A model generated the notes under the pieces. That model had not been told where the DNA came from, ran no database searches, and worked only from the letters and a program-made list of their open reading frames with translations. A DNA stretch of 64,000 nucleotides from Flavobacterium humi (GTDB lineage Bacteria > Bacteroidota > Bacteroidia > Flavobacteriales > Flavobacteriaceae), in contig NZ_SRLH01000004.1 of NCBI RefSeq assembly GCF_004745595.1, forward strand, positions 372,001-436,000, written 5' to 3'. This document shows, piece after piece, positions 59,425 through 63,472 of this stretch (position 1 is the first letter of the stretch; each line of letters opens with the position of its first letter). The position numbers were made by a program, and so were the translations under genes.

Positions 59425-59935
59425 AGATTTACTTTGTCAGTCCGCTTCACTCGTGCACTCCTTTGCCGGAATGACAAGATCACGCAAGCTTTAGCCTATG
59501 CATGATGTTTTATCTTAACGTTTGTCATCCCGACGAAGGAGGGATCTCCCCAATCTTTCCACGCCCTACACCACGCCCTTTTGTTTTTTACGCAAAAAAT
59601 CAAGGAAGTATTTTAGCGTTGGCAGAAAGGAGGGAACCAAAAAGCGAGGAGGAACGAAGAGCGGCCTGATTCCCGATAAGAAAATCCGTAGATTTTAAGT
59701 AAAAAACAATCAGGCTTGATTTTTTGTTTCTTTTAGTTCACCGTAAATTTATTTTCATCGGTGTTCACTGAACCTCATACTTCGGTTTGTATCAAGGCAA
59801 AAGAAAAAGAAACAAGAAATCAGTTTACAGAGATTACTTCGTCAGTTCGCTACACTCGTGTCCTCTTTCGTCGGAATGACAAACGTTGCGCAATCTTGTC
59901 ATTCCGACAAAGGAGGAATCTTTTCAAGTAAAACT
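59425..59935. repeat. Two copies of a CATTCCGAC-type repeat around a hairpin segment
   Basis: Copy 1 (about 59425-59548) and copy 2 (about 59830-59920) share the block from GAGATT through TCACTCGTG to CGGAATGACAA. Each copy holds an inverted repeat: 59460-59477 with 59522-59539 (15 of 18 match) and 59862-59882 with 59896-59916. Between them lie GCCTGATT (59664-59671) with AATCAGGC (59708-59715). No gene is supported from 59359 to 60349. Confidence 0.65.
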
Positions 59936-59951
59936 GCTGTTAGTATTTTCT

Positions 59952-60071
59952 TTGTGGCAAAAAAACAATCCCAAATAATTTTGCCACAAAAACTGTGGCA
60001 AAAAAAATACAACAGAAAAAATTGCCACAACTTTTGTGGCAAAAAAATAATTTGAAGAAAAATTGCCACAA
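59952..60071. repeat. 41-bp palindromic tandem array (three units)
   Basis: Six copies of TTGTGGCAA or its complement TTGCCACAA lie at 59952, 59981, 59993, 60022, 60034 and 60063. The steps are 29, 12, 29, 12, 29, so three units of 41 bases repeat exactly, each with 20 A-rich bases inside and 3 outside. One copy starts CTG instead of TTG. It is not a CRISPR: the inner parts are A-rich and no cas gene is seen. Confidence 0.85.
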
Positions 60072-60349
60072 ATTTTGTAAGAATGCCTGAAACAAAAATT
60101 CGGACTATTTGCTTTTGGATAATTGCTGTTGAGAATATTCAGATGATATTGATACATACTTTATTGCATGAGGGGAAATTTTAGATTTATCTTAACAGGA
60201 AAGTCATTAAATAGATAAGAAAGACAATGTTTGAATATAACAATACTATGATGAGTTATAAGGATGGAAAAGTAAGTGTTTATACGTATTGCTTGAAGGT
60301 CAAAATATGTATAAATTGCCTTGTATAGAAATCTTAAACTATAGTAATC

Positions 60350-60553: not shown

Positions 60554-60684
60554 AACCCGATAGCACGGATTTGCAACCCGTGCTCACAAAGAAAATAAAG
60601 AGCAAAAGCTTTAAAAAGTTGAATCTTATATTAGATTTGTAATAATTGGAACTGGCACAGATTGCAAATCCGCGCTATCGGGTT
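60554..60684. repeat. MITE/REP-like inverted repeat
   Basis: AACCCGATAGCACGGATTTGCAA (60554-60576) and TTGCAAATCCGCGCTATCGGGTT (60662-60684) complement each other with one mismatch over 23 bases around 85 bases. It resembles small non-coding elements moved by transposases (for example REP elements of REP-associated transposases), but no transposase is in the window. Confidence 0.7.
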
Positions 60685-60828: not shown

Positions 60829-62355
60829 ATGCCTTCAATTATAATTGAAAATCTAAAGAATATCAGGCTGCTAAACTTTGAGATTCCAAATGGAGGAGTA
60901 CATGTTTTAACGAGTGTTAATGGATCGGGAAAAACAACTCTACTTACATGCCTAGAAAGAATAATAAATAGTTATGCATTTCAAAGGCATTTCAAGACTT
61001 CTAATAATGATCAATTTGATAATTATAGGAATGCAAGAATAACATATATTAGAAATGCCACTACTTCTGTCACATACAGATATAAAAATACGCGGTGGGT
61101 ACCAGCTCCAAGGAAAAATTCCAATCTTCTATTACATTTGGGTTTTAGTCAGGTAATTTATTTAACTTCTAGCGATGAAAGGTTTTATATACAAAATCAA
61201 GAATTAAATACAGCGAACATTTCAGCAGCTTCTCAATTTATAAAAGATGGGATGAATGAAATTTTTCAAACAACTAAATTTACAGATTTACGTAGAATTA
61301 AATTGATTGGAAAAGGTTTAGGTAATGTTAGACGAAATTTCGGATATGTTTTACCCCTAGGAACAGTTGGAGGTCAGAACAGGTATTTTTCTGAAAAGAA
61401 TTTTAGTTTAGGCGAAGTTCTTATATTGAATGCATTAAGTGAATTAAGTAATGCTGTAAATAATGGTTTAGTTTTAATCGACGAAATTGAGCTAGCATTA
61501 CATCCTAAAGTCCAAATCCTTTTTTTAAATTTCTTAAAAAGAATTGCCAATAATAAAAACCTAACTGTTATTTTATCGACACATTCATCTAGTTTAATAA
61601 AAGCAGCTCCTAGGCTTATTTTTCTATCAAGAAATTCAAATGGGAATGTTGAAGTAGAATATGATTGCTATCCCGCAATAGCATTACAAAATGTTGCAAT
61701 AACCGAAGAAGTACAACCGGATATTGTTTTTTTTGTTGAAGATATTTCAGCTAAATATCTATTGCAAGAACTTATAAATTACTATCTAACACATATAAAT
61801 ACAACACGAAGACCAATAATGAAAATACTTCCTGTTGCTGGATATAAACAAACTGTATACTTCATGGTTTCATCAATGTCTTATTTAATACCATCAAATA
61901 CTAAAGTCTATAGTTTTCTTGATCAAGATGTGCAATTAACCATAAATACATTGGCTGTAAAAGTGAACAGAACAATTAGCGAACAAGAATTATTAAATGT
62001 ATTTAATGCAAATAACCAAATAATTAAATATTTACCAATTACACCTGAGCTAGGAATTGTTACTCACTTAAATAATAATCCTACAACACATATAATTCCA
62101 CTACAAAACTTATTTAACGAAGTTTTCGACATTTCTCAAATTATTGTTGATGAAAATAATCGTGGACTAGTCTATTCTGCAAACCCAAGAGATGCTGCAA
62201 AGGTTAGAATACAATATTATATTGAGAGAATAAAAAATGCTACAAATTTAGATGAGCCTAGAATAAAAATTATGCTGACGCAATATTATTCTATATATTA
62301 TGGAATAAATAATGTTGGTCTTTTACAAGGACTATTAAATCCTATTTTCGTATAA
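60829..62355 (+). CDS. AAA ATPase with TOPRIM-like C-terminus (OLD-like)
   Basis: 508 residues. The ATPase half has Walker A VNGSGKTTLLTCL, signature-like FSLGEVLILNAL and Walker B LVLIDEIELALHPKV, ending LSTHSSSLIKAA (switch region). The second half has FFVEDISAKYLLQEL, KILPVAGYKQTV and YSFLDQDVQL, matching the Glu, Gly and Asp-x-Asp steps of TOPRIM nuclease folds as in OLD-family proteins. Such proteins often act in phage defence. It is more A/T-rich than its housekeeping neighbours and directly follows an attC-like site, so it is likely acquired. No partner gene such as GajB is visible. Confidence 0.82.
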   Translation: MPSIIIENLKNIRLLNFEIPNGGVHVLTSVNGSGKTTLLTCLERIINSYAFQRHFKTSNNDQFDNYRNARITYIRNATTSVTYRYKNTRWVPAPRKNSNLLLHLGFSQVIYLTSSDERFYIQNQELNTANISAASQFIKDGMNEIFQTTKFTDLRRIKLIGKGLGNVRRNFGYVLPLGTVGGQNRYFSEKNFSLGEVLILNALSELSNAVNNGLVLIDEIELALHPKVQILFLNFLKRIANNKNLTVILSTHSSSLIKAAPRLIFLSRNSNGNVEVEYDCYPAIALQNVAITEEVQPDIVFFVEDISAKYLLQELINYYLTHINTTRRPIMKILPVAGYKQTVYFMVSSMSYLIPSNTKVYSFLDQDVQLTINTLAVKVNRTISEQELLNVFNANNQIIKYLPITPELGIVTHLNNNPTTHIIPLQNLFNEVFDISQIIVDENNRGLVYSANPRDAAKVRIQYYIERIKNATNLDEPRIKIMLTQYYSIYYGINNVGLLQGLLNPIFV

Positions 62356-62770: not shown

Positions 62771-63472
62771 ATGAAAGAAACAACTCTAAAATCAATTGAT
62801 CAATTGCATAAATTTTTGGAGCGATTCCGAAAAGCAAGTCATTTTAAATTTAGAGGTCAAAGTGATAAATATTGGGAATTAACCCCAAAAGCTGGAAGAC
62901 AAGAGTTTAAAAAAGTAAGAGATATTACCATATTTGAACATTGGAAAAGACGAGCACCATACTACCTAGAAAGAGAAAATTATAATGAATGGGAGTTGCT
63001 ATCAATTGCTCAACATACTGGGCTTCCAACAAGGCTATTAGATTGGACTCACAATCCACTAGTTGCATTTTTTTTCGCAGCATCGGAAAATTATGAAAAA
63101 GATGGAGCCGTTTATATTTATAAGGCAAATCATCGTGTACTACATGAAAAATATGGTCCCTTTGAACTAACCATTCCAATTGCTTTTTTTCAGCCTAATG
63201 TTTCTTCAAACAGAATTGCAAATCAATTCGGCTATTTCACTATACATTTAGACCCTAAAAATGCACTAAATGATGATACAAAGGATGGTCATTTAGAAAA
63301 ACTTATTATTCCATCAGAACTAAAAAAAGAAATAACACATATGCTTAATCAGTACGGCATAAACTATTTAACTTTATTCCCTGACTTAGAGGGTTTATCA
63401 AAACATTTGAGTTGGTTTGCAGAAAACAACAATTTTTGGAATAATACATTTGATGAAGATGGTTTAGACTAA
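62771..63472 (+). CDS. FRG-domain protein
   Basis: 233 residues. The name-giving motif FKFRGQSDKYWELTPKAGR is near residue 24, and AQHTGLPTRLLDWTHNPLVA near residue 77 is the second family signature. FRG proteins are widespread, often near defence or toxin genes, with no settled reaction. Cytoplasmic; no helix or signal. It forms one candidate cassette from 62740 to the core in site B. Confidence 0.88.
   Translation: MKETTLKSIDQLHKFLERFRKASHFKFRGQSDKYWELTPKAGRQEFKKVRDITIFEHWKRRAPYYLERENYNEWELLSIAQHTGLPTRLLDWTHNPLVAFFFAASENYEKDGAVYIYKANHRVLHEKYGPFELTIPIAFFQPNVSSNRIANQFGYFTIHLDPKNALNDDTKDGHLEKLIIPSELKKEITHMLNQYGINYLTLFPDLEGLSKHLSWFAENNNFWNNTFDEDGLD

Follow-up and report, generated by a model that had tools for sequence, protein, structure and literature searches.

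The window analysed here, a stretch of 64,000 nucleotides from Flavobacterium humi (G000:C9:372001-436000), contains, in a repeat-rich region flanked by genes for a response regulator and an AAA ATPase (a 64-aa ORF also lies in this interval), six half-sites TGTGGCAA arranged in three palindromic units with a period of 41 bp (window positions 59952-60071). The words start at 59952(+), 59981(-), 59993(+), 60022(-), 60034(+) and 60063(-), i.e., at steps of 29, 12, 29, 12 and 29, so that each unit encloses 20 bases and successive units are separated by 3-base linkers. Read on the + strand, units 1 and 3 (59952..59989 and 60034..60071) are exact matches to TTGTGGCAA-N20-TTGCCACAA, and unit 2 (59993..60030) matches CTGTGGCAA-N20-TTGCCACAA; the linkers, to which no strand is assigned, occupy 59990..59992 and 60031..60033. 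Units 2 and 3 are, respectively, 70% and 80% identical to unit 1. The limits of the whole array (59951..60072, + strand) coincide within one base with the ends of its homology to two differently flanked copies, L012 and L016. The original prediction, namely six 9-base words that alternate in direction at these steps and enclose differing, A-rich insides, held when the word positions were recomputed; the claim that the words are exact held in part, given that five of the six 9-mers are exact and the third is CTGTGGCAA, with all six inner 8-mers being TGTGGCAA.

On its own, a word is nothing unusual in the window, where 31 matches with at most one mismatch compare with 26.5 expected. The unit TGTGGCAA-N20-TTGCCACA has three exact matches, all within the array, and one match with three mismatches elsewhere, compared to 0.42 expected at three or fewer mismatches; none of 100 shuffles contained as many. 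The left flank of the array (59864..59950, + strand) is shared with the copy L013 and, from 59896, with L009, and this homology ends at the right end of the array. In the coordinates of the extracted window copy (L011; window position = L011 position + 58479), the similarity covers 1385-1594 for L013 (91%) and 1417-1593 for L009 (94%).

Several other features of this region are recorded here as separate observations. Repeats of the GTCATTCCGACGAAGGAGGAATC type are present at 59429-59925 and also next to the arrays in L009, L010 and L013. A 30-nt inverted repeat at 60554-60684 (AACCCGATAGC.../...GCTATCGGGTT) perhaps represents another type of dispersed repeat; similar letters, such as CCGATAGC, flank the L015 array on both sides. 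The AAA ATPase (60829-62355; Pfam AAA_21/AAA_15) matches the ATPase-Toprim, Ptu and Gaj models of PADLOC, and is followed by an FRG-domain protein (62771-63472; PADLOC PDC-S15), so that the two might constitute a defence pair. The array also includes TTG-N21-TAATTTTG, which is close to the Bacteroidota promoter motif. A promoter overlap was dropped for lack of enrichment in the regions next to the linked genes described below: the pattern TTG-N19-22-TAnnTTTG is found on the sense strand of one of 46 such regions (antisense, 6) vs 1.2 expected.

A family of HTH genes with adjacent arrays

In the relatives G082, G061 and G065, an array with the same 40-41-bp architecture is located directly 5' of a small gene encoding an XRE-type HTH protein. 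The original prediction would have been refuted by an array unique to this strain without spacing conservation in relatives; a search of the genome and its relatives identified scattered copies, and the spacing is conserved in the relatives, so this refutation does not apply. The window genome itself encodes four proteins of this family, each with an array within 220 bp 5' of the ATG and with words that differ between genes, i.e., TGTGGCAA (unit 1) followed by TGTGACAA for L030, TGTGATAA for L031, TGTTTCAA/TGTTGCAA for L032 and TGTGTTTA for L033. No gene of the family lies beside the window copy.

All seven family proteins submitted to Pfam score above the curated cut-off for PF01381 (HTH_3) or PF12844 (HTH_19), which places the family in the XRE/Cro-CI group; most of its members are 165-190 aa long and contain long helices. 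The family is found almost only in the genus of the window: it is represented in 12 of 101 genus genomes (E<=1e-5; the protein of one of these, G053, resembles an ordinary XRE protein), in one of 299 genomes at the family level, the window's own (E<=1e-8), and in 7 of 395 phylum genomes, of which six belong to the genus and the seventh, outside it, gives a weak hit. Among the named loci, 33 of 36 are labelled Flavobacterium, the other three being metagenome bins with other labels. A long palindrome, TTGTGACGTTTGCGTC..., 5' of a distant relative from another family (L168 in G554) hints at a related arrangement outside the genus.

The linkage between the arrays and the family genes is evident across 54 non-redundant loci (60 were fetched and repeats were dropped). 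The 5' region scores higher than all 12 of its shuffles in 47 of the 54 homologues (about 4 expected by chance), compared to 0 of 53 control regions taken about 1 kb further upstream. No significant array was detected at L038, L056, L068, L069, L081, L085 and L091; at least one of the 47, L037, owes its place to a chain of an A/T-rich word and fails in the TGT register. When the run was limited to TGT words, 46 of the 54 regions scored 20 or more, mostly with steps of 27/28 and 12/13 and a period of 40-41. These arrays mostly consist of two to four units, and in 32 of the 46 TGT-register loci, the last half-site ends no more than 18 bases from the ATG. Across the 101 genus genomes, arrays and homologues are strongly associated (p=3e-11): both are present in 11 genomes and both absent from 86, one genome has a homologue without an array, and three have an array without a homologue, the arrays of two of these three being weak. 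In one genome with arrays, G068, no family gene was found; the sole hit is a generic XRE protein, about 80 aa in length, without an array upstream, as judged by eye. The p-values given here are optimistic, since loci that are related and arrays that are copies of one another do not count as independent observations. The arrays linked to L034 and L066 mix two words inside units. At L046 (around 2380-2490) and L053, the six words nest as outer, middle and inner pairs of one large dyad rather than as homotypic units, and a small palindrome resembling all or part of ATCACCAAATTTGGTGATAT, or a variant thereof, is located 5' of the array in the L034, L040, L074, L075, L084 and L169 regions.

The letters of the words covary with residues of the recognition helix of the adjacent protein. 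In 38 cluster representatives, CA at word positions 6-7 accompanies arginine at helix position 2 (28/29 vs 0/9), T at word position 4 accompanies alanine or glycine at helix position 3 (9/12 vs 1/26), and A at word position 5 accompanies alanine at helix position 6 (6/6 vs 5/32); in addition, isoleucine or leucine at helix position 10 is associated with G, and serine with T, at word position 5. Across the whole protein, 6 of 44 tests within residues 25-36 exceed z=4, compared to 3 of 628 elsewhere, a contrast that partly controls for shared ancestry. Four formal rules fit the training set in 37/38, 32/37, 34/38 and 26/29 cases (13 of 142 fail) and ten held-out proteins in 9/10, 9/9, 10/10 and 7/7 cases, with a single failure, L169, among 36; guessing the commoner letter would succeed for 23 of these 36. 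The rule for position 10 was written down before the held-out loci were fetched. The held-out proteins come from 15 new loci, of which five were excluded: L164 duplicates L066, L166 is truncated at a contig end, no array could be read at L175 and L177, and L168 is a distant relative. Identity to the nearest training protein is 35-54% for nine of the ten and 80% for L163, whose nearest is L059; L163 (helix TRTQWSMYVLG) has the word TGTGGCAA, its near-orthologue L059 (TRSQWAMYVSG) has TGTGACAA, and both changes fit the rules. TGTGGCAA is also the word of L063 from F. silvisoli, whereas L047 has TGTGTCAA. Valine or isoleucine at helix position 3 co-occurs with A at word position 4 in L167 and L089, a possible further rule that rests on these two cases only. 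Given that the site letters and the recognition helix change together, the site read by a protein of this family appears to be largely predictable from its sequence; the code predicts, for example, that replacement of I/L by S at helix position 10 would shift the preferred word from TGTGGCAA to TGTGTCAA. Binding itself is inferred, with no binding or expression data available.

The neighbourhoods of the family genes offer limited functional clues. In 16 of 47 loci, a helical partner protein of 135-146 aa is encoded downstream, at a distance of 112-168 bp; its placement differs at L054 (325 bp downstream) and at L045 (upstream). It is present in 6 of the 101 genus genomes, all of which also have a family gene, and is missing from the window genome; eight of nine copies are within 212 bp of a family gene, and the ninth is on a short separate contig. 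Two partner sequences matched no Pfam family; the protein is predicted to be all-helical, and a fold search returned only coiled-coil look-alikes (best E 0.13). Of 57 gene-linked loci, 10 have a gene for a type I restriction-modification (R-M) subunit at a distance of up to about 2.5 kb, in 8 of the 10 upstream on the opposite strand. None was found near 38 scattered loci, for which the available flanks are shorter, or within about 1.5 kb of the four window-genome paralogues. This search used only five type I HsdM/HsdR queries and no other R-M types, and the background rate was not measured. L060 is next to a gene with a Cas9 bridge helix. Most of the neighbours tested are ordinary genes, and 37 neighbour proteins run through Pfam (E limits 1e-5 and 1e-8), drawn from the 64 non-partner neighbours of at least 110 aa, included no toxin family. 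Control of defence operons by the family at a subset of loci is thus no more than a possible lead and has not been shown.

Scattered copies and the likely binding unit

The window array is one of at least 18 scattered arrays in its genome (17 besides the window's), in addition to the four linked to family genes. A core pattern of intact words identifies 11 places (31 rows), and a covariance model built from the gene-linked arrays adds seven, among which C8:447845 has a weak score (E 0.03). The total is a lower bound, because only 150 of 3860 candidates were scored by the model and the count leaves aside two weak single hits, at C8:150372 and C9:234913. Two of the 18 are located at contig ends. 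One scattered array (L007 1451-1585) is followed, after about 14 bp, by a chromate transporter gene and, given this proximity, could act on it.

The 121-bp arrays move through the chromosome as discrete blocks. In L012, L016 and L013, homology ends where the arrays end, and between these three copies with unrelated flanks, the inner spacers are 81% alike, compared to 28-38% for the flanks; L009, L010, L013 and the window copy share longer flanks. The mechanism of this movement can only be inferred. Visual inspection of the aligned copies revealed no target-site duplication. An empty-site comparison for the L008 array yielded no junction because there is no close relative: its right-hand gene is at most 74% identical in relatives, and none of the long matches listed covered the array. 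A phage or plasmid origin was considered and rejected, given 13 IMG/VR pattern matches without a relative among them, one match over 27% of the query in phages, and none in plasmids; the exact array pattern had no match in IMG/VR.

Mixed scattered arrays hold words of several resident proteins, e.g., L152 (TTGC, GGC, GAT, GGC) and L148 of G011. In six of eight genomes, the scattered words are nearest, or tied for nearest, to those of the genome's own residents, a fit equalled by 12 of 40320 permutations; the words of G090 and G009 are not best fitted to their own residents, and in the window genome, GGC is included among the resident words solely on account of unit 1 of the L030 array.

The composition of these arrays also delineates the unit. 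Among 68 units of 22 mixed scattered arrays, 36 have two identical words, compared to 14 of 46 word pairs across a linker; permutation of half-sites within arrays matched this in none of 5000 trials, and in 3 of 5000 for the 11 other-genome arrays alone. Spacing is specific to the word, being 28 in 33 of 34 GGC units and 27 in all nine TTxC units of the window genome, where many units are copies of one another. Thus, the units are mostly homotypic, with word-specific spacing, and together these two properties suggest that TGT...N19/20...ACA is more likely to be bound as a unit than the short inverted pair that spans the linker.

An AlphaFold2 model of L039 (mean pLDDT 89) consists of the HTH domain (7-55), a 57-residue helix (64-120) and two more helices. 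By simple arithmetic, 28 bp correspond to about 95 A and the helix to about 85 A, so a protein ruler is plausible as a model-based prediction. A Foldseek search reveals resemblance to solved structures for the HTH only, with no significant match (best C.AhdI, E 0.21).

Interpretation and alternatives

Taken together, these observations are best compatible with the window array being a set of binding sites for XRE/Cro-type HTH proteins of a Flavobacterium family whose tail is long and helical, with one homodimer reading each unit. We consider this likely, binding and regulation being inferred. In the proposed mechanism, one homodimer would read one unit TGTnnnnn-N19/20-nnnnnACA, the HTH heads contacting the two half-sites and the long helices setting them about 27-28 bp apart; this dimer geometry is inferred. 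With a unit period of 40-41 bp, equivalent to about four helical turns, the dimers would line up on one face of the DNA. An array beside its own gene, which mostly reaches close to the start codon, would most likely mediate negative feedback; such autorepression, likewise, is an inference. The scattered 121-bp copies, including the one in the window, would offer resident paralogues additional places to bind or, if the matching gene has been lost, would be orphans; any function of theirs is inferred. The earlier proposal that the array arose by unit duplication or is kept by a binding protein, with selection acting on words and spacing, is supported by the covariation of the words with the recognition helix of the adjacent protein and by the spread of copies as blocks.

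The strongest alternative is that the window copy and the other scattered arrays have no present role and are remains of moved arrays or of decayed gene loci, which remains possible. According to the rules, none of the four resident paralogues reads exactly TGTGGCAA; the closest is L030 (TRSQLAMYEIG), for which the predicted word is TGTGACAA, although TGTGGCAA forms unit 1 of the array next to its gene. Hence L030 may bind the window copy, perhaps with lower affinity, or this copy may be an orphan. This alternative is also favoured by the persistence of arrays in G068 without a family gene and by L146 (G090), where the family gene that follows a scattered array has lost a large internal part, so that some solo arrays derive from gene decay. 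Against it, a search for decayed genes at 38 scattered loci detected a clear relic only at L146 (E 1.8e-5; all others E >=0.09), and in seven scattered copies, the words are intact (identity 0.99) compared to the inner bases (0.64), although a search by intact words, by which these copies were found, favours such an outcome.

Under a second alternative, the arrays would act as RNA, with unit hairpins in transcripts serving as terminators, stabilisers or riboregulators and the palindromes kept for pairing. Five array strands indeed fold stably (z -5.6 to -9.5), and scattered arrays are located between convergent genes more often than between divergent ones (12 vs 3, with 18 tandem; n=33, p=0.035), a count that omits loci with one neighbour, includes the weak arrays L149 and L160 in the convergent set, and contains L026 and L027 with similar flanks. 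However, G-U-compatible mismatches inside units are not enriched (14/115, i.e., 0.12 vs 0.17 expected), the same word recurs in successive units, for which pairing has no need, the words obey the recognition-helix code, and Rfam gave 13 weak matches, none at gathering score; we regard this possibility as very unlikely. The same verdict applies to a REP/BIME-like selfish palindrome moved by a RAYT-type transposase, with adjacency to HTH genes incidental: the arrays are likewise scattered, intergenic, modular, apparently block-mobile palindromes of alternating orientation, but no linked transposase was detected (Y1_Tnp, PF01797, E<=0.001, has no match in the window genome, relatives being outside this search, which was positive in 5 of 14 control genomes), and the linked gene encodes, instead, an HTH protein to whose helix the word is tied, so that both the linkage and the code are left unexplained.

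The HTH family is also comparable to several known regulators. C proteins of R-M systems (C.AhdI, C.Esp1396I, C.BclI), the top Foldseek matches noted above, are likewise small XRE-fold regulators, and C-boxes are palindromic sites located 5' of the C-protein gene, a placement that the family shares at 47 of 54 loci. Unlike C proteins, the family is not a regular member of R-M operons (47 of 57 loci have no type I R-M gene nearby), its proteins are longer, with arrays of mostly two to four units at 40-41 bp, and its sites also occur as scattered copies. Phage 434 and lambda Cro and CI read operators of palindromic half-sites with specificity set by the recognition helix, a likeness to the family arrays, and the HTH fold is in common (434 Cro is among the weak Foldseek matches); in contrast, the family half-sites are 27-28 bp apart in a homotypic unit rather than adjacent, the proteins have a long helical tail, and paralogues share mixed arrays. 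Autoregulation of the Xre-RES type toxin-antitoxin systems (PMC12204516) similarly involves an XRE protein, palindromes and higher-order binding, but no toxin family was found among the neighbours tested here, and some loci have a coiled-coil partner of unknown function. A table of REP counts (PMC12306157) includes two Flavobacterium genomes. A description of these arrays was not found in the open-access literature searched, most subscription journals and preprints being outside its scope.

A bolder reading, which on balance we would lean slightly against, is that of a mobile operator network, in which 121-bp modular arrays without a visible transposase would spread through Flavobacterium chromosomes, gather units for several paralogous HTH/coiled-coil proteins and keep creating combinatorial landing sites, while the paralogues would drift to new words via a readable code, with the protein setting the spacing as a molecular ruler. 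As for the preferred reading, i.e., binding-site arrays of the HTH family, tens of HTH proteins, each beside its own predicted site, constitute a natural library in which the evolution of specificity can be read and tested residue by residue, and the L059/L163 pair looks like a natural specificity switch. The system joins autoregulators and mobile palindromic repeats, which are usually kept apart, and raises the question of how such repeats move without a visible transposase.
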